Positions 6,962 through 24,937 of a stretch of 38,733 nt of DNA are shown one piece after another. The DNA is from Chitinophagaceae bacterium (GTDB taxonomy: Bacteria; Bacteroidota; Bacteroidia; Chitinophagales; Chitinophagaceae). Under the pieces are notes generated by a model. The model was not told the DNA's origin. It searched no databases and worked only from the letters and a program-made list of their open reading frames with translations. The first letter of the stretch is position 1; each line of letters opens with the position of its first letter. The DNA lies in contig JAICZH010000021.1 of assembly GCA_025933775.1 (NCBI GenBank), positions 1 through 38,733 on the forward strand, in the 5' to 3' direction. The translations under genes and the position numbers were made by a program.

Positions 6962-7780
6962 TTAAAATCTTATTGCAAAATGTTGTTTTATTATAAAATC
7001 AGGATTAAAAAAAACAATCCCAATAAAAAAAAGATCAATAGTTAATTTCACTGAGTCGTGCTGCTGTATTAGCTTCCACGCTTCTTCCATTTCTGTGCTC
7101 CAGTGAATGTCATCAAAAACAAAAATGGAATGTGCCGTTGATTTTTTTAGCAAAGAAAAAAAATAATTAAGCGTTGGCTCTTTGCGATGATTGCCATCAA
7201 TAAAAGCAAAATCTATTTTTTTTATTTCATGTAATGCAGGTAAAAATGTGTCATCAAAGTTTCCTTTTATTAAACGAATGTTTAATAGTTTTAATTGATT
7301 AAAATTTTCATTGGCAATGGCCGCAATTTTTTGAGATCCTTCAAAAGTATATACCTCAGCGTTTTTATTGGCGAACGCAATGTAAGAAGTGGTAATTCCA
7401 AATGAAGTTCCCAATTCAATAATGGTTTCGGGATTATAATATTGTACCATTTTGAAAAGAAGCTGTGCAAATTTTTTATTCTTTAAAGAAGTGTTTGCAA
7501 TGGCATTTATTTTTCGTTTTTGTGTACCTGCCTGTCCGGTAGGCTGGTACATTATTGTGGATCCTGCGCCGAAATCTTCCACTTCAATTATCGTATTATT
7601 GCGATGAAGCTGATTGCGCAACAGTTCAATTTTATCATAGCAGTCATAAATTTTTTTATCATTTAAAACATGAATAACAAAATCGAAAACAAATGGAGAA
7701 TGAATGCCATGGCCTTTTCCGTTGTTTGCGGTAAAATAATAATCAAGATATTTTTTGGCTAATTGAAATCTCGAATACAT
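6962..7780 (-). CDS. Class I SAM-dependent methyltransferase
   Basis: A 272-aa protein with a central Rossmann methyltransferase domain: motif I IIELGTSFGITTSYIA, an acidic end of strand beta-2 (VYTFEG), and DFAFIDGNHRKEPTLNYF. This resembles the Methyltransf_24/O-methyltransferase group; the substrate is unknown. Residues near 78-87 (YQPTGQAGTQ) are encoded by a 27-bp DNA palindrome and appear to be an in-frame insertion between GAGS and the KRKINAIA region. It starts 10 bp after folA stops, so thyA, folA and this gene are probably co-transcribed. Confidence 0.8.
   Translation of the reverse strand: MYSRFQLAKKYLDYYFTANNGKGHGIHSPFVFDFVIHVLNDKKIYDCYDKIELLRNQLHRNNTIIEVEDFGAGSTIMYQPTGQAGTQKRKINAIANTSLKNKKFAQLLFKMVQYYNPETIIELGTSFGITTSYIAFANKNAEVYTFEGSQKIAAIANENFNQLKLLNIRLIKGNFDDTFLPALHEIKKIDFAFIDGNHRKEPTLNYFFSLLKKSTAHSIFVFDDIHWSTEMEEAWKLIQQHDSVKLTIDLFFIGIVFFNPDFIIKQHFAIRF
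7524..7550. repeat. GC-rich palindrome inserted in frame in the methyltransferase gene
   Basis: GTACC-T-GCCT, a seven-base loop, then AGGC-T-GGTAC: a 9-bp interrupted stem. On the coding strand it reads as YQPTGQAGT. It is far more GC-rich than the surrounding gene and looks like a mobile palindromic unit kept in frame. Confidence 0.7.
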
Positions 7781-7789
7781 CAGTAAAAT

Positions 7790-8287
7790 TTAAGCAGGCT
7801 CCTTTCTTTTCCAAACTTCAAATGTATATGGATAATTATTTTTATCATCTGCCGGAAAAGATTTTTCGCTTACCAGTTTCCATTTATTTTGATTTATTTC
7901 AGGATAAAAAGTATCGCCGGTTACATCGGCGTGTACCCGTGTGCGGTATATTTTGGAAACTATATCCATCGTTTGTTCAAAAATTTTTCCTCCGCCGATA
8001 ATAAAAATTTCTTTGGCATCGCTTTCTTTTGCTTTTTCAATGGCGTCATTAATATTATTTGCTATAAAAATTCCTTCAGGATGCCAATTGGTTTTTGTGG
8101 TAACAACAATATTTATTCTTCCGGGCAATGATTTTTTTAATGACTCATAAGTGTTTCTTCCCATGATTATCGGCATTCCCCATGTTTTATTTTTAAAATA
8201 AATAAAGTCGTTAGCGAGCTTCCATGGCAATGCATTGTGCGAGCCAATCACATTATTTTCTGAAGCGGCAACGATGTGGGAAAGCAT
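7790..8287 (-). CDS. folA: Dihydrofolate reductase
   Basis: Reduces dihydrofolate to tetrahydrofolate with NADPH, restoring the cofactor used by ThyA next door. The family N-terminus is clear from MLSHIVAASENNVIG, followed by LPWKLANDFIYFKNKT, the NADPH-binding MGRNTYESL and the FIIGGGKIFEQ loop. I place the start at 8287 (165 aa) because DHFR normally begins right before HIVAASENNVIG. The frame is open to an ATG at 8350, which would add 21 residues (including PKPSLRGLEGP) encoded largely by an inserted palindromic element. Whether that extension is translated is unresolved. Confidence 0.93.
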   Translation of the reverse strand: MLSHIVAASENNVIGSHNALPWKLANDFIYFKNKTWGMPIIMGRNTYESLKKSLPGRINIVVTTKTNWHPEGIFIANNINDAIEKAKESDAKEIFIIGGGKIFEQTMDIVSKIYRTRVHADVTGDTFYPEINQNKWKLVSEKSFPADDKNNYPYTFEVWKRKEPA

Positions 8288-8288
8288 A

Positions 8289-8389
8289 GGCCCCTCCAAA
8301 CCCCGAAGGGAAGGCTTAGGAAGTTCTTTTGCATTTGAGATTTCTTTCATAAAAAAAATTCTTTAAGCCCCCTTCGGGGATACAGGGGC
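8289..8389. mobile_element. MITE-like palindromic element between thyA and folA
   Basis: Two GC-rich arms in inverted orientation bound about 101 bp. One arm on the plus strand (8289-8323) begins GGCCCCTCCAAACCCCGAAG. The other, on the minus strand (8389-8361), begins GCCCCTGTATCCCCGAAGG and ends GGCTTAAAG. Both share GCCCCT, CCCCGAAGGG and GGCTTA. The interior is AT-rich. The element contains the upstream alternative folA ATG. A sequence matching one arm lies after the RemB-like gene at 24.8 kb. No transposase is encoded. Confidence 0.6.
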
Positions 8390-8390
8390 A

Positions 8391-9212
8391 TTACACCGCC
8401 ACCGGCGCTTTAATAACAGGATGACTTTGATAATTTATTAATTCAAAATCCTCATAATTAAAACTAAAAATATCTTTTACTGCTGTATTTATTTTCATTG
8501 TTGGAAGTGCAAAAGGTTTTCTTGTAAGTTGTAACTGCGCTTGTTCAAAATGATTTTTATACAAATGAACATCGCCGAATGAATGTATAAATTCTCCCGG
8601 TTCCATATCGCACACTTGTGCAATCATCATCGTAAGCAAAGCATACGATGCGATGTTGAAAGGCACTCCCAAAAAAACATCTGCGCTTCTTTGATACATT
8701 TGGCACGAAAGTTTTCTTTTCTCTCGCCCTTCGGTGGAGCCGGAGGAGACCGTATAAAATTGAAATAAACAATGGCATGGCATTAATTTCATTTCAGGTA
8801 AATCGGCAACGTTCCATGCGCTGATGATCATTCTTCTGCTATCAGGATTTGTTTTTAACTGATGAATTAATTCACTTACCTGGTCAACTACTTTATTATC
8901 TGCACCTTCCCAACTTCTCCATTGCTTACCATAAACAGGTCCAAGATTTCCATTTTCATCAGCCCATTCATCCCATATTCTTACTCCATTTTCTTTCAGG
9001 TATTTAATATTGGTATCGCCTTTTAAAAACCAAAGCAATTCATAAATGATACTTTTAAGATGCAGTTTTTTTGTAGTAACTAAAGGAAATCCTTTTCGCA
9101 AATCGAAACGCATTTGATAACCAAATAAACTTCGTGTGCCCGTACCCGTACGATCGCTTTTATCGGCGCCTTCATTAATAATTTTTTGTAAAAGCTGAAG
9201 ATATTGTTCCAT
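8391..9212 (-). CDS. thyA: Thymidylate synthase with a small in-frame insertion
   Basis: Converts dUMP to dTMP using methylene-tetrahydrofolate, yielding dihydrofolate for FolA. Conserved blocks are [21 protein letters not shown], the active-site [29 protein letters not shown], the HSFGDVHLY segment and the C-terminal KAPVAV. It is 273 aa against 264 in E. coli. The excess of nine matches an insertion ([12 protein letters not shown] region) between FQFY and KLSC, where most enzymes have a four-residue turn. That stretch coincides with a GC-rich hairpin in the DNA. A near-consensus TAACTTGC lies close upstream of the ATG. Confidence 0.95.
8722..8750. repeat. GC-rich hairpin inserted in frame within thyA
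   Basis: CCTTCGG (8728-8734) and CCGGAGG (8740-8746) form a 7-bp stem with one T-G pair around a five-base loop. It corresponds to the extra residues in ThyA between FQFY and KLSC. The composition contrasts with the rest of the gene. Confidence 0.65.
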
Positions 9213-9371
9213 GTGCGCAAGTTAACTATGATTAATGAGATTGATGGGACTGATAGGATTTTGAGGAAAATGAATGAATTGATTTTAAACTTTTGAAAAA
9301 TTTAAAGCTTTCCAAATCATTTAATTAACTATTAAACCAATTAACCAATTAACCAAAACACCAAACTATCT

Positions 9372-9379
9372 TATCTTTG
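9372..9379 (+). promoter_or_regulatory. Candidate -7 element for mnmA (TATCTTTG)
   Basis: An exact TAnnTTTG followed by C, 19 bases upstream of the mnmA ATG. It gives a plausible start site a few bases downstream and a leader of roughly a dozen bases. The spacer before it is low-complexity (repeats of AATTAACC). Confidence 0.55.
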
Positions 9380-9398
9380 CAGGTCATTCGAAAATAAA

Positions 9399-10502
9399 AT
9401 GAGTAAAGGAAAAGTTTTAATGGCGATGAGCGGCGGCATTGATAGTACGGTAGCGGCTCTGATGCTGCATCATGAAGGCTATGATGTGATTGGAATTACT
9501 ATGAAAACGTGGGATTATGCTACCAGCATAGGCAATAGCCATAAAGAAACCGGCTGCTGCAATTTGGACAGTTTTAATGATGCACGGGCAGCTGCGGTGC
9601 AACATGGGTTTCCTCATTTTATTTTAGACATACGCGAAGAGTTTGGGGATTTTGTAATTGATAATTTTGTAGAAGAATACATTGCCGGCCGCACGCCAAA
9701 TCCTTGCGTGCTTTGCAATACGCATATTAAGTGGCGCGCTTTATTGAAAAGAGCCGATGCATTGGATTGCGAATTTATTGCAACGGGGCATTATGCACAA
9801 ATTCATCAACACAGTAACGGGCGATTTTTTATAAGAAAAGGAATTGATGAAACCAAAGACCAAAGCTACGTGCTGTGGGGCTTACAGCAAGATTTGCTTA
9901 GTCGTACACTTTTGCCGTTAGGTACGTATCGTAAAACAGAAATAAGACAAATGGCTTATGATTTCAACTATCCGGAACTGGCAAAAAAAAGTGAGAGCTA
10001 CGAAATTTGTTTTGTGCCCGATAATGATTATCGCGGATTTTTAAAGAGAAAAGTTGAAGGGCTTGAAGAAAAAGTTTCCGGTGGTTTTTTTATTGATAAA
10101 AATGGAAAAATTTTAGGCCCGCATAAAGGCTATCCTTTTTATACAATCGGCCAGCGCAAAGGGCTTGACATTTCAATAGGTAAGCCGGCATATGTTACTG
10201 AAATTATTCCGGAAACTAATACAATTGTTCTTGGAGATGAAGATGATTTAAATAAAAATGAAATGAATGTTGCGGGCATCAACTGGATAAAATATGACAG
10301 CATTACAAACGGAATGGAAGCGATTACAAAAATCAGGTATAAAGATAAAGGTGCACTTTCTAATCTTTTTTTATACGAAAGTGGCGTGCGTGTACGTTTT
10401 TATGAAGATGTAAAAGGTATTGCGCCGGGGCAAAGCGCTGTATTTTATGAAGGCGATGATGTAATTGGCGGAGGAATTATTCAGAGAGATAAGCGGGTTT
10501 AG
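9399..10502 (+). CDS. mnmA: tRNA-specific 2-thiouridylase MnmA
   Basis: Adds sulfur at C2 of wobble uridine 34 in tRNAs for Lys, Glu and Gln. The N-terminal PP-loop SGGIDSTVAA (residues 11-20) binds ATP. The catalytic cysteines are in NPCVLCN (about residues 101-107) and YEICFVPDNDYRGFL. Further conserved blocks are ATGHYA, KDQSYVLW and FYTIGQRKGL. The 367-aa length is normal. It starts at the ATG behind a good -7 element and is transcribed away from thyA. Confidence 0.95.
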   Translation: MSKGKVLMAMSGGIDSTVAALMLHHEGYDVIGITMKTWDYATSIGNSHKETGCCNLDSFNDARAAAVQHGFPHFILDIREEFGDFVIDNFVEEYIAGRTPNPCVLCNTHIKWRALLKRADALDCEFIATGHYAQIHQHSNGRFFIRKGIDETKDQSYVLWGLQQDLLSRTLLPLGTYRKTEIRQMAYDFNYPELAKKSESYEICFVPDNDYRGFLKRKVEGLEEKVSGGFFIDKNGKILGPHKGYPFYTIGQRKGLDISIGKPAYVTEIIPETNTIVLGDEDDLNKNEMNVAGINWIKYDSITNGMEAITKIRYKDKGALSNLFLYESGVRVRFYEDVKGIAPGQSAVFYEGDDVIGGGIIQRDKRV

Positions 10503-21711: not shown

Positions 21712-23065
21712 ACCGGTTAAATAAAAGTCTTTGCCCTTTTATGGATTCATCAAAAAAATGTTTTTCTGAATTTTGATTTTGATACACGCAATTTCCATTT
21801 ACAAAAGTTTGCATAATTGCAGCAGGAAATGTAAAATTTTCAAACGGACTCCATCCGCATTTATATAAAATATTTTCTGTGGTTACTGTTGTTGAAGCAT
21901 TCAAATCAACGATAACTGCATCGGCAAAATAACTTTCGCGTATGTAACCGCGGTTTTCAATTTTAAAACAATCAGCAACAGCATGGCTCATTTTTTCAGC
22001 AATTTTTTCCAAAGAAATAATTCCTTGCTTATAATAATGCATCATCAGTAAAAGTGAGTGCTGAACTAAAGGCAAACCAGAATATGCATGTTCATACGGA
22101 CCTTTTTTCTCATCTAAAGTATGCGGCGCATGATCGGTGGCAATCACATCCAAACGTCCATCCAGCAAGGCTTTCCAGAGGGCCGGTTTATTTTTTGGTT
22201 CTTTAATTGAAGGATTACATTTTATTAAATAACCAAGTCTTTCATAATCATCCGCAGTAAAATGCAAATGATGCACACACACTTCAGCAGTAATTTTTTT
22301 TTCTTTTAAAGGAATATCATTTGTAAAAAGCGCTAATTCTTTTTCAGTTGAAATATGTAAAACATGCAGCCTGCTATTATATTTTTTTGCTAATGAAACT
22401 GCGAAAGAAGAAGAGGCATAACAGGCATTTTCATCGCGAATTAATGGATGATCGGATGGTTCGAGAATTTGTTTTGCATTTTTTATTCGCTGATAATTTT
22501 CTTTAATTATTTTTTCATTTTCGCAATGAGTTGCAATTAATAAATCGCTTCCGGCAAATATTTTATTAAGCGATGCTTCATTATCTACCAGCATATTTCC
22601 TGTGCTGGAACCCATAAAAATTTTTACGCCGCACACTTCTTTTTTTCTTTTATTCATCTTCAAAACTTCATCAGCATTGGTATTGCTGGTTCCCATAAAA
22701 AATGAATAATTGGCCAATGAATTTTTATTTGCTATTGCATATTTTTCTTCAAGCAATTCTTCTGTAAGTGCATTGGGCACTGTGTTTGGCATTTCCATAA
22801 ATGAAGTAACGCCGCCCGTAACTGCCGCTTTGCTTTCGGTATAAATGGTTGCTTTATGCATAAGGCCCGGCTCACGAAAATGCACCTGGTCGTCAATGGC
22901 GCCGGGAAAAAGATGTTTGCCTTCTCCGTCAATTTCATTTACTTTTTCTTTTACGTTAATAGAATTATCTATTCTTTCAATTCGTCCTTTTTTTAAATAA
23001 ATATCTTTTTGTTCAATTTTCCCTTCATTGACAATGGATATATTTTTTAGAAGATAATTTTGCAT
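21710..23065 (-). CDS. pyrC: Dihydroorotase
   Basis: A zinc amidohydrolase (451 aa from the chosen start) that closes carbamoyl aspartate to dihydroorotate in pyrimidine synthesis. It has the metal-binding DDQVHFREPG, the GVKIFMGSSTGNML segment with the probable carboxylated Lys, THCENE, RLHVLHIST and ATDHAPHTLDEK. I use the ATG giving MQNYLLKNISIVNEG. The longer frame to 23164 overlaps the divergent gene and adds unrelated Arg/Cys-rich residues. Allantoinase-like paralogues cannot be fully excluded, but the HFREPG motif favours PyrC. Confidence 0.88.
   Translation of the reverse strand: MQNYLLKNISIVNEGKIEQKDIYLKKGRIERIDNSINVKEKVNEIDGEGKHLFPGAIDDQVHFREPGLMHKATIYTESKAAVTGGVTSFMEMPNTVPNALTEELLEEKYAIANKNSLANYSFFMGTSNTNADEVLKMNKRKKEVCGVKIFMGSSTGNMLVDNEASLNKIFAGSDLLIATHCENEKIIKENYQRIKNAKQILEPSDHPLIRDENACYASSSFAVSLAKKYNSRLHVLHISTEKELALFTNDIPLKEKKITAEVCVHHLHFTADDYERLGYLIKCNPSIKEPKNKPALWKALLDGRLDVIATDHAPHTLDEKKGPYEHAYSGLPLVQHSLLLMMHYYKQGIISLEKIAEKMSHAVADCFKIENRGYIRESYFADAVIVDLNASTTVTTENILYKCGWSPFENFTFPAAIMQTFVNGNCVYQNQNSEKHFFDESIKGQRLLFNR
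23055..23062 (+). promoter_or_regulatory. Candidate -7 element for the RemB-like gene, inside pyrC
   Basis: TAATTTTG is an exact TAnnTTTG. It lies inside the first codons of pyrC on the opposite strand, 36 bases before the RemB-like ATG. The two divergent coding regions are only 33 bp apart, so their promoters must overlap. Confidence 0.4.
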
Positions 23066-23098
23066 ATCTTGAAATTTAATAATAAACAACCAAACCCG

Positions 23099-24805
23099 AT
23101 GCAAATTATAAAAACAGTTTCTTCGCTGGCAATATTTATTTGCCCGTTTATTATCAATGCGCAAACAACTTACCTGCCGGAGGGTTCAAAAGAATATCAA
23201 TTTATTGACCGGCTCGAAATAAAAGAGGGCCGCAATATGAATTTTAATTTTTCTACATTAAAGCCTTACAGCCGGCGATCCATTGTGCAGGAAGCTGAAT
23301 TTTTAGACAGCTCCCGCATGGCCTATGATAGCTCAATTACCAGTGATGAAAATAAATGGGATGGTTTAAACCTTACTAAAGTAGATGAATATAATTTGCA
23401 TAGTATTTTAATGGATAACTCAGAATGGGTAACAGGTTCAAAGGAAAGTTTTTTAAGTAAAAAACCAATATTAAAAACTTTTTATACAACCAAACCAAAC
23501 TTGCTTGAAGTAAATGTGAAAGACTTTTTTCTGGCAGTAAATCCTGTTATATCGTTTCAGGCAGGTGGTGAAACCGCAAACAATGAAACGATTTTTTATA
23601 ACAAACGCGGCATAACTGCGAGAGGAAGAATTGCCAATAAAATTGGTTTTTCAACAACGATTACCGATAACCAGGAACGTGCGCCTTTGTTTGTTCAAAA
23701 CAGGGTGGATAGTTTTCATGCAGTGCCGGGAATTGGTTTTTATAAACCTTTTAAAACAACCGGGTACGATTATTTTGATGCAAGAGGTTATATCACTTTT
23801 AATGTAACAAAATATATTGATGTGCAATTTGGCTACGATAAAAATTTTATTGGCGATGGTTACAGAAGCCTTTTCCTGAGCGACTTTAGCAATAGTTATT
23901 TATTTCTGAAATTGAATACAAAGATCTGGAAACTGGATTATCAAAATCTTTTTATGGAGCTGATGCCGCAGTTTGTAAAGAATGGAGATTATTTGCTGAG
24001 CAGAAAATATGCAGCGATGCATCACCTGAGTATGAACATTGGCAAATGGCTGAATGTAGGCGTTTTTGAAAGTATTGTTTTTGGAAGAAAAGATATTTTT
24101 GATTTAGAATATTTAAACCCGATTATATTTCTGAGGCACATTGAAGGAACAGTGGGAAGCCCTGATAATGCTTTTGCAGGAATAGATTTTAAAGCAAATG
24201 CTGCGCATCATTTTCAATTTTACGGGCAACTTCTTTTAGATGAATTTTTGTTGAAAGAAGCATTTAAAGATGATGGTTATTGGGCTAATAAATTTGGTTA
24301 TCAGCTTGGCGCAAAATATGTGGATGCTTTTACAATTAAAAATCTTGATTTGCAAATTGAAACCAATAGGGTGCGGCCTTTTACATATTCGCATTATGAT
24401 TCTGTTGCAGATTATACACATTATAATGAACCGCTGGCACATCCGCTGGGCGCGGGTTTCCAGGAATTTATCGGCATTGCAAAATATCAACCGGCGCCCA
24501 AATGGTATATTAATGCCAGAATGATTTATTATTACCAGGGGCTTGATTTGGCAGGAGAAAATTTTGGAAGCAATCCATTTGAATTATATACAACCCGCTT
24601 GAATAATTTTGGTTATTTTATTGGCAGCGGAAACAAAATAAAAGTATTTAATGCTTCATTGGCATTATCGTATGAACTTAAAGAGAATCTTTTTTTAGAT
24701 GGCTCTTATTTGTTTCGCAAAGTTTCCGGCGGAGGCATTGGCGATACAAATGTTTTTGAAATAGGAATAAGATGGAATGCGGCGAAGAGAGAATATGATT
24801 ATTAA
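23099..24805 (+). CDS. Outer-membrane beta-barrel protein, RemB/Wzi-like
   Basis: A 568-aa protein from ATG 23099 with signal peptide MQIIKTVSSLAIFICPFIINAQ. The mature N-terminus YLPEGSKEYQFIDRLEIKEG, then LKPYSRR, resembles the RemB gliding-related family and Wzi-like capsule proteins. The rest is rich in alternating aromatic strands (QFGYDKNFIGDGYRSLFLSD) and ends in an aromatic residue, as expected for an outer-membrane barrel. An upstream in-frame TTG at 23060 is not preferred. The function in motility or surface polysaccharide is inferred. Confidence 0.65.
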   Translation: MQIIKTVSSLAIFICPFIINAQTTYLPEGSKEYQFIDRLEIKEGRNMNFNFSTLKPYSRRSIVQEAEFLDSSRMAYDSSITSDENKWDGLNLTKVDEYNLHSILMDNSEWVTGSKESFLSKKPILKTFYTTKPNLLEVNVKDFFLAVNPVISFQAGGETANNETIFYNKRGITARGRIANKIGFSTTITDNQERAPLFVQNRVDSFHAVPGIGFYKPFKTTGYDYFDARGYITFNVTKYIDVQFGYDKNFIGDGYRSLFLSDFSNSYLFLKLNTKIWKLDYQNLFMELMPQFVKNGDYLLSRKYAAMHHLSMNIGKWLNVGVFESIVFGRKDIFDLEYLNPIIFLRHIEGTVGSPDNAFAGIDFKANAAHHFQFYGQLLLDEFLLKEAFKDDGYWANKFGYQLGAKYVDAFTIKNLDLQIETNRVRPFTYSHYDSVADYTHYNEPLAHPLGAGFQEFIGIAKYQPAPKWYINARMIYYYQGLDLAGENFGSNPFELYTTRLNNFGYFIGSGNKIKVFNASLALSYELKENLFLDGSYLFRKVSGGGIGDTNVFEIGIRWNAAKREYDY

Positions 24806-24937
24806 GCCCCTGTCCCCCGAAGCGGGAACTTGGGTCAAATCTTTCTTTAAATCTTCGATGATTTTTTAAAAAGAAAGGTTGATGAGTTTTTATTTTATAA
24901 AAGAAAGTTACTACCCTTCCCTTCGGGAAGGGCTTTA
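24804..24937. mobile_element. Palindromic element after the RemB-like gene
   Basis: The left arm (24804-24828) begins AAGCCCCTGTCCCCCGAAGC and matches the thyA-folA element. The right arm contains a perfect hairpin CCCTTCCC-TTC-GGGAAGGG (24915-24933) followed by CTTT. The arms are inverted relatives (AAGCCC, GAAG and GGGAA shared) around an AT-rich interior with an imperfect TCTTTCTTTAA / TTAAAAAGAAAG pair. The element begins inside the stop codon of the preceding gene. Confidence 0.55.

Follow-up and report, generated by a model that had tools for sequence, protein, structure and literature searches.

The stretch of DNA analysed here, hereafter the window, comprises 38,733 nucleotides of contig JAICZH010000021.1 from a Chitinophagaceae bacterium (GCA_025933775.1) and has a GC content of 34%. 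On its minus strand lie thyA (8391–9212; thymidylate synthase, 273 aa, Pfam PF00303), folA (7790–8350; dihydrofolate reductase (DHFR), 186 aa, Pfam PF00186 over residues 22–182) and a Methyltransf_24-type methyltransferase gene (6962–7780; 272 aa, Pfam PF13578), each an open reading frame (ORF). The methyltransferase gene, folA and the gap between thyA and folA contain short GC-rich palindromic repeats. Judged from sequence comparison, the repeats very probably belong to at least two dispersed families that have recently multiplied, have inserted both in and between genes, and act as coding repeats resembling Rickettsia palindromic elements (RPEs). A preliminary description of the window had seen three unlike, one-off palindromes in the methyltransferase gene, at the folA start and in thyA. 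The elements in the methyltransferase gene and folA are retained below as members of families with different habits, the one in thyA is not, and a fourth element, at 8361–8391, had been overlooked.

A 2.25-kb segment, bounded by the start of thyA and the end of the methyltransferase gene, was aligned with the syntenic stretch of G045, a genome of the same genus. Identity was 77.2% over aligned bases, and the window carried four insertions along with deletions of 4 and 2 bp. Outside thyA, the only insertions were 21 bp in the methyltransferase gene, 34 bp in folA and 31 bp in the thyA–folA gap. All four insertions fall at GC-rich stretches: three of the sites are within listed GC-rich segments, and the methyltransferase site is a GC-rich hairpin found by a hairpin scan.

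The 21-bp insertion in the methyltransferase gene (7525–7545, minus strand) is predicted to encode (Y)QPTGQAG and defines what we call family A. Together with its flanks it forms the interrupted palindrome TGTACCTGCCTGTCCGGTAGGCTGGTACA (7523–7551, hairpin scan), and the protein reads FGAGSTIMYQPTGQAGTQKRKINAIA in the window and FGAGSAVIPFKKRKINAIA in G045. The element folds with a z-score of −4.65, none of 200 shuffles being as good. The palindrome initially described here is thereby confirmed as an insertion, as a hairpin and, as shown below, as a member of a 17-copy family. The 34-bp insertion near the FolA N-terminus (8281–8314, minus strand) would encode approximately KPSLRGLEGP; the protein begins with MKEISNAKELPKPSLRGLEGPMLSHIVAASE in the window and MKNNSEKVFLAHIVAASE in G045, and its DHFR domain starts at residue 22, downstream of the element. 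The 31-bp insertion (8361–8391, minus strand, with alignment-dependent edges) lies past the thyA stop, ahead of the folA start. Both are assigned to a second family, B. A family B sequence model built from 42 copies, none of them from the window, matched the gap at 8368–8391 (E 7.4e-4), a copy also present in the genome-wide list of core matches, and folA at 8291–8310 (E 0.0018), which was not a training sequence.

A search of the 3.25-Mb genome with the family A core, CCTGCCTGTCCGGTAGGCAGG, allowing up to 3 mismatches, found 17 copies; the reversed control gave 0. All 17 copies, in 16 genes, are within long stop-free frames of 201–1006 residues (a raw count), and identical or near-identical 21-mers recur in unrelated genes. 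The frame bias is clear: in 12 of the 17 the frame reads LPTGQAG or a close variant (binomial 9e-6 against 1/5, copies treated as independent), the remainder being three TCLPDRQ-like frames, one LPVRQAG and one PASPTGR. A single stop occurs among the six frames of the core (LPVR*A), and its common G/C variant is stop-free in all six; the sole copy read in the LPVRQAG frame carries this stop-free variant. Because 21 bp is a multiple of three and the frames are nearly stop-free, translation could run through an insertion and add about seven residues, most often LPTGQAG. Pfam or NCBIfam recognised 15 of the 16 host proteins (one locus, L013, had no match). They are a TrmN6-like methyltransferase, a phosphomannomutase-family protein, GpsA, LepA, a tricorn-like protein, Maf, TopA, PheS, the window methyltransferase, two proteins with alpha-2-macroglobulin or MG2 domains, an RsmB-like protein, AnmK, kynureninase and a beta-propeller protein with two copies; lepA, topA, pheS, gpsA and maf are among the gene names.

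Family B elements are about 26–34 bp long and AAGCCCCCTAACCCCCGAAGGGGG-like. Their core, CCCCCTTCGGGG, had 60 matches in the genome at up to 1 mismatch, compared to 2 in the control, so that ordinary coding sequence probably explains a few of the 60. Of 442 candidates 150 were scored with the sequence model, giving at least 72 genome matches at E <= 1. Stop-free frames of 100 residues or more hold 35 of the 60 copies, and 25 lie outside long frames. Among 23 in-frame copies oriented CCCTTCGGGG, 15 lie no more than 37 residues from where the stop-free frame begins, and in 11 of these an in-frame ATG precedes the element. Family B copies lie largely near gene ends, N-termini among them, and there would extend the protein by residues such as FPPSGVRG or, in FolA, KPSLRGLEG. 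Ten hosts were searched with Pfam and all ten matched a family; hosts include NuoB, an NDH-2-like protein, a CDP-alcohol phosphatidyltransferase, an IMS polymerase and a nucleotidyl transferase. The exact longer family B pattern occurs 25 times in this genome, 16, 3 and 2 times in three of 15 congeners and twice in genome G086, with 0 in the control and 0 in 42 of the 47 genomes examined. At one locus (L041, G000:C69:16590–16756) a single 687-residue frame holds two oppositely oriented family B copies separated by about 130 bp.

Presence and absence could be followed in further host proteins. At the element LepA of this genome reads HAIQINYTTNLPTGQAGGNAYTLNLID, the residues spanning it being predicted as NLPTGQAGGNAY. 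The loop is 7 residues shorter in 11 of 12 congeners; LepA was also read in six other-family genomes (L188 left out), five having a loop 7 residues shorter and the sixth one 5 residues shorter. LepA shows a 6-residue gap at the element against the solved LepA structure 2ywe, and Maf a 14-residue gap against 4heb. PheS is 6–8 residues longer than its full-length congener matches, and its linker varies too strongly to place the insert (7 of 16 loci read). Going by these alignments, presence and absence are established for the methyltransferase, FolA and LepA, and supported for Maf. The comparison to Rickettsia that had been made for all three window palindromes appears to hold for the methyltransferase and folA, where presence and absence are joined by dispersed families, and not for ThyA.

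In the twelfth congener, G301, the LepA loop is 5 residues longer than in the other congeners, and the insert contains CCTGATAGCTATCGGG, a palindrome with 8 copies in G301 (one in its lepA), 52 in congener G300, 3 in the present genome and 0 in the control, each occurrence being counted on both strands. This third palindrome family in the LepA loop (L175, G301:C58:17110–17125; CCCGATAGCTATCGGG) recurs in several congeners, with a spacing of about 110–130 bp in some of them. The PheS linkers of congeners G298 and G300 (L195, L196) contain other repeat-like stretches, and this linker may be another insertion hotspot.

Alignment and genome search had different outcomes for ThyA. The preliminary description attributed nine additional residues to a palindrome there, and the same-genus loop turned out to be only 3 residues shorter (a 9-bp insertion against G045, 8735–8743). 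A search for ThyA matched 56 of 60 genomes; loop length varies across the 30 loci of the family that were read, this genome's among them, whole proteins being about 264–273 aa. The ThyA palindrome had no second genomic copy within 3 mismatches, and the family B model did not match it at E <= 5. ThyA was rejected as a proven element on these grounds (single copy, naturally variable loop, no match to the family B model, 9 bp or 3 residues of difference from G045), and the feature at 8728–8746 (hairpin scan) is regarded as a hairpin in a variable loop whose status as an element is not supported. The loop may be a tolerant site. In genome G030 it contains the palindrome-like CCCCTCCCAAGGGGAGG.

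Hairpin strength in the window varies. The intergenic thyA–folA copy folds weakly (z −1.41) and the ThyA hairpin is unexceptional against shuffles (z +0.45); only the methyltransferase element is a strong hairpin on its own. The window contains 29 GC-rich hairpins, compared to 9–23 in 12 dinucleotide shuffles. Three hairpins start between 7400 and 8800 (at 7523, 7915 and 8728), compared to 0–1 in shuffles. Since the one at 7915 is no part of the finding, hairpin density by itself is modest evidence, and the case rests on the insertion pattern and the genome-wide copies.

Counting the present genome, 56 of the family's 294 genomes have family A at up to 2 mismatches, with a single control match noticed. 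The copy number is 16 in the present genome and 0, 0, 1, 0 and 0 in five congeners; the highest counts elsewhere are 42, 26, 25, 18 and 16. The repeat has spread recently. A first set of 31 copies from relatives, at 29 loci, had 19 in long frames, 14 of them reading LPTGQAG. In a second set, a partial one of 60 copies picked from listed places in ten genomes, 31 were in long frames, 19 of which read LPTGQAG. Hosts in relatives include MnmA, HisS, glycine C-acetyltransferase and PheT, where two genera have the element in the same place; tolerant sites are shared. The two PheT copies (L137 and L256) are at the same N-terminal site, L137 having two copies in tandem.

An exact family A 25-mer was found in six metagenome-assembled genome (MAG) records labelled Chitinophagaceae, Saprospiraceae, Cellulophaga, Ignavibacteriaceae, Kuenenbacteria and uncultured Bacteroidetes, a phylum spread that rests on the record labels as given, with binning taken on trust. 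Four of the six copies read NLPTGQAG or NLPAGQAG in a long frame, RecN being among the hosts. Viral contigs also had the core, in 25 stretches with 29 copies, 21 of which are within long frames. By eye, the core in viral contigs L151, L154, L161 and L167 is contained in larger GC-rich palindromes that look like family B.

As to how such repeats might multiply, the elements would be non-autonomous and copied in trans; a single-strand nuclease of the HuH/Y1 type that recognises hairpins is our first guess for the mobiliser. Harmless in-frame insertions would survive and harmful ones would be purged. Many family A copies of this genome share about 46 bp, with AAACTAA upstream and approximately CGGTAACGCCTATACGAA downstream of the core, and such flanks are shared within a genome and different between genomes. 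The joined flanks of 89 family A copies from relatives were compared with random 36-mers: against four or five expected, 16 folded at or below the 5th percentile, and 2 did so at or below the 1st, which suggests that family A is nested in other hairpins. In HisS of genome G278 (L124) the same 14 bases, CTCCCGACTAACGA, stand on both sides of the core, with similar runs at other G278 copies; this direct repeat may be a duplication or an older repeat. The genome-specific flanks and the L124 repeat point to copying of composite units. We tentatively consider, with rather less than even confidence, that the 21-bp, nearly stop-free palindrome may be a minimal mobile unit with coding capacity, one that passes between genera and perhaps even phyla and is re-amplified in each lineage within differing composite repeats. 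It would repeatedly fix one flexible peptide, LPTGQAG, in loops of essential proteins, loops that other palindrome families would also hit independently in sister species.

Three Y1_Tnp hits were found in the genome, two above the Pfam cut-off; the third, at 22.1 bits against a cut-off of 23, we take to be RAYT-like by its motifs. One family B copy (C30:20896) is about 0.5 kb upstream of this RAYT-like frame. The frame (L082, 1402–1950) has a different hairpin of its own, CCGTCTGGTCTCCGACCAACGG, just upstream.

A number of observations weigh against recently multiplied coding repeats as the explanation. No mobiliser was found in the genome; the fetched stretches around the three Y1_Tnp hits contained no family A copy, and the hairpin of the RAYT-like gene occurred at one place only among the loci examined. 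The net gain in LepA and the methyltransferase is 21 bp despite the shared unit of about 46 bp. No direct repeat that could mark a target duplication is visible at the methyltransferase site, unlike at L124. The folA element is not better folded than shuffles (z +0.57), so that of the palindrome first placed at the folA start the 34-bp insertion and the membership of family B hold and the hairpin does not; the word palindrome suits the family more than this copy. The 17-of-17 genic count is a raw one, uncorrected for coding density. In relatives, 12 of the 31 copies of the first set and 29 of the 60 of the second are in no long frame; outside this genome family A is found in no long frame about as often as in one. 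Viral contigs show no preference for LPTGQAG (5 of the 21 long-frame copies, all five in one contig).

Among other explanations, spread by recombination, template switching or phage transfer instead of a transposase fares best, and we consider it unlikely though deserving of attention. Identical cores in viral contigs and in MAG records labelled as several phyla fit such transfer, and genome-specific flanks around the same core resemble copying of longer composite units. However, the empty LepA and methyltransferase sites of congeners (two sites compared) have no long homology to the element flanks, and the extended unit of this genome had no plasmid match and only partial matches, at E 0.2–0.8, in 11 phage records, so that a phage or plasmid as carrier of that unit is weakly supported.

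Coding repeats must also be weighed against repetitive extragenic palindromic (REP)-like sequences kept for a function in RNA or DNA (mRNA 3′ ends, termination, nucleoid binding), genic copies being incidental. Such an origin would account for the 25 of 60 family B core matches outside long frames, for the many family B copies with a coding codon score on one flank only, and for the 29 of 60 family A copies in relatives that lack a long frame; of the three terminator-like sites in 7000–9500, one is the minus-strand folA element. However, such sites are not in excess (3 compared to 2.1 ± 1.5 in shuffles), all 17 family A copies of this genome are in long frames with strong preference for a single one, and the GT[AG]G or CGTC feet are missing from 33 of 34 family A flanks and 119 of 120 family B flanks. 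We regard this explanation as improbable, and on the same flank counts canonical GTAG/CGTC REPs were rejected as an identity for A or B in this genome. A known structured RNA at the sites was likewise rejected, Rfam at E <= 1 having returned two far sub-threshold hits to eukaryotic families only. Ordinary indels in variable loops, with the palindromes as chance GC-rich codon runs, suit ThyA (a loop variable across the family, a single-copy palindrome) and the length-variable PheS linker but are very improbable overall and refuted for families A and B, given 17 and 60 matches compared to 0 and 2 in controls, (near-)identical 21-mers in unrelated genes, and LepA and FolA of relatives without inserts.

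Coding repeats of the RPE kind remain the preferred explanation, and several known systems invite comparison. RPEs, as described in two reviews (PMC2229807, PMC10969869), form several palindromic families located both between genes and, in frame, within conserved genes, and are 105–146 or about 150 bp long; equivalents in Wolbachia appear as a title in the reference list of PMC2229807. A further source has the RPEs of R. conorii ending in CGTC and counts RPE-4 and RPE-6 as short CGTC repeats (PMC3733652). The repeats described here are likewise dispersed and palindromic, of several families, in frame in unrelated conserved genes and absent from relatives. They differ in length (21 bp for family A, 31 and 34 bp for two family B copies, against about 105–150 bp in the two reviews, the sizes of RPE-4 and RPE-6 being outside this comparison) and in having no CGTC end in A and B here, the RPEs being compared by description only. 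Because they would seem to work like RPEs but are far shorter and without a GTAG/CGTC tag here, we name A and B RPE-like and not RPEs.

With GTAG/CGTC REPs, which PMC3733652 describes as short dispersed hairpins, some intragenic and at N-termini, with CGTC repeats in Bacteroidetes, families A and B share the short dispersed hairpins, some within genes and at N-termini; they differ in the terminal tag, which was looked for and is missing from A and B here. In relatives, 76 of 89 family A copies have no GTAG/CGTC and 11 have CGTC, 5 of these in genome G249, where a CGTC-tagged composite may exist. Bacteroidetes also have REPs of TnpAREP/RAYT subclasses 2.4 and 2.6, those of 2.4 entering the tnpAREP gene with the frame kept (PMC6006769). 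Palindromes in Bacteroidetes and a RAYT-like gene are common to that system and this genome; the differences are that no family A copy lies in the stretches fetched around the Y1 genes, that a single family B copy is about 0.5 kb upstream of the RAYT-like frame, and that the RAYT-like gene has a different hairpin. Miniature inverted-repeat transposable elements (MITEs), small non-autonomous repeats capable of in-frame fusion with host genes according to PMC10969869, are similar in being small repeats in frame in host genes and different in that here there is no clear target-site duplication (none at the methyltransferase site, a 14-bp repeat at L124). Inverted ends belonging to a resident IS were not identified either, no search having been aimed at them. 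The preliminary description knew of no named family of this kind in Bacteroidota; our searches of open-licence literature met no report of the present family, and CGTC-type REPs are reported from Bacteroidetes in PMC3733652.

The finding of recently spread coding palindromes, of several families, in lepA, topA, pheS and folA of a Bacteroidota lineage points to inserted short repeats as a more widespread way for proteins to gain loops. Coding palindromes are best known from the intracellular Rickettsia and Wolbachia. With same-genus genomes that have empty sites at hand, rate, target choice and effects on proteins are directly testable. Short insertions in genome-predicted proteins may also be repeats and not adaptations, which serves as a warning for the interpretation of such proteins.

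Elsewhere in the window, the family B model gave a third match (E 0.056; core at up to 1 mismatch) at 24803–24827, at and just past the stop codon of the gene at 23060–24805. About 100 bp beyond this copy, at 24914–24932, is a perfect hairpin, CCCTTCCCTTCGGGAAGGG.

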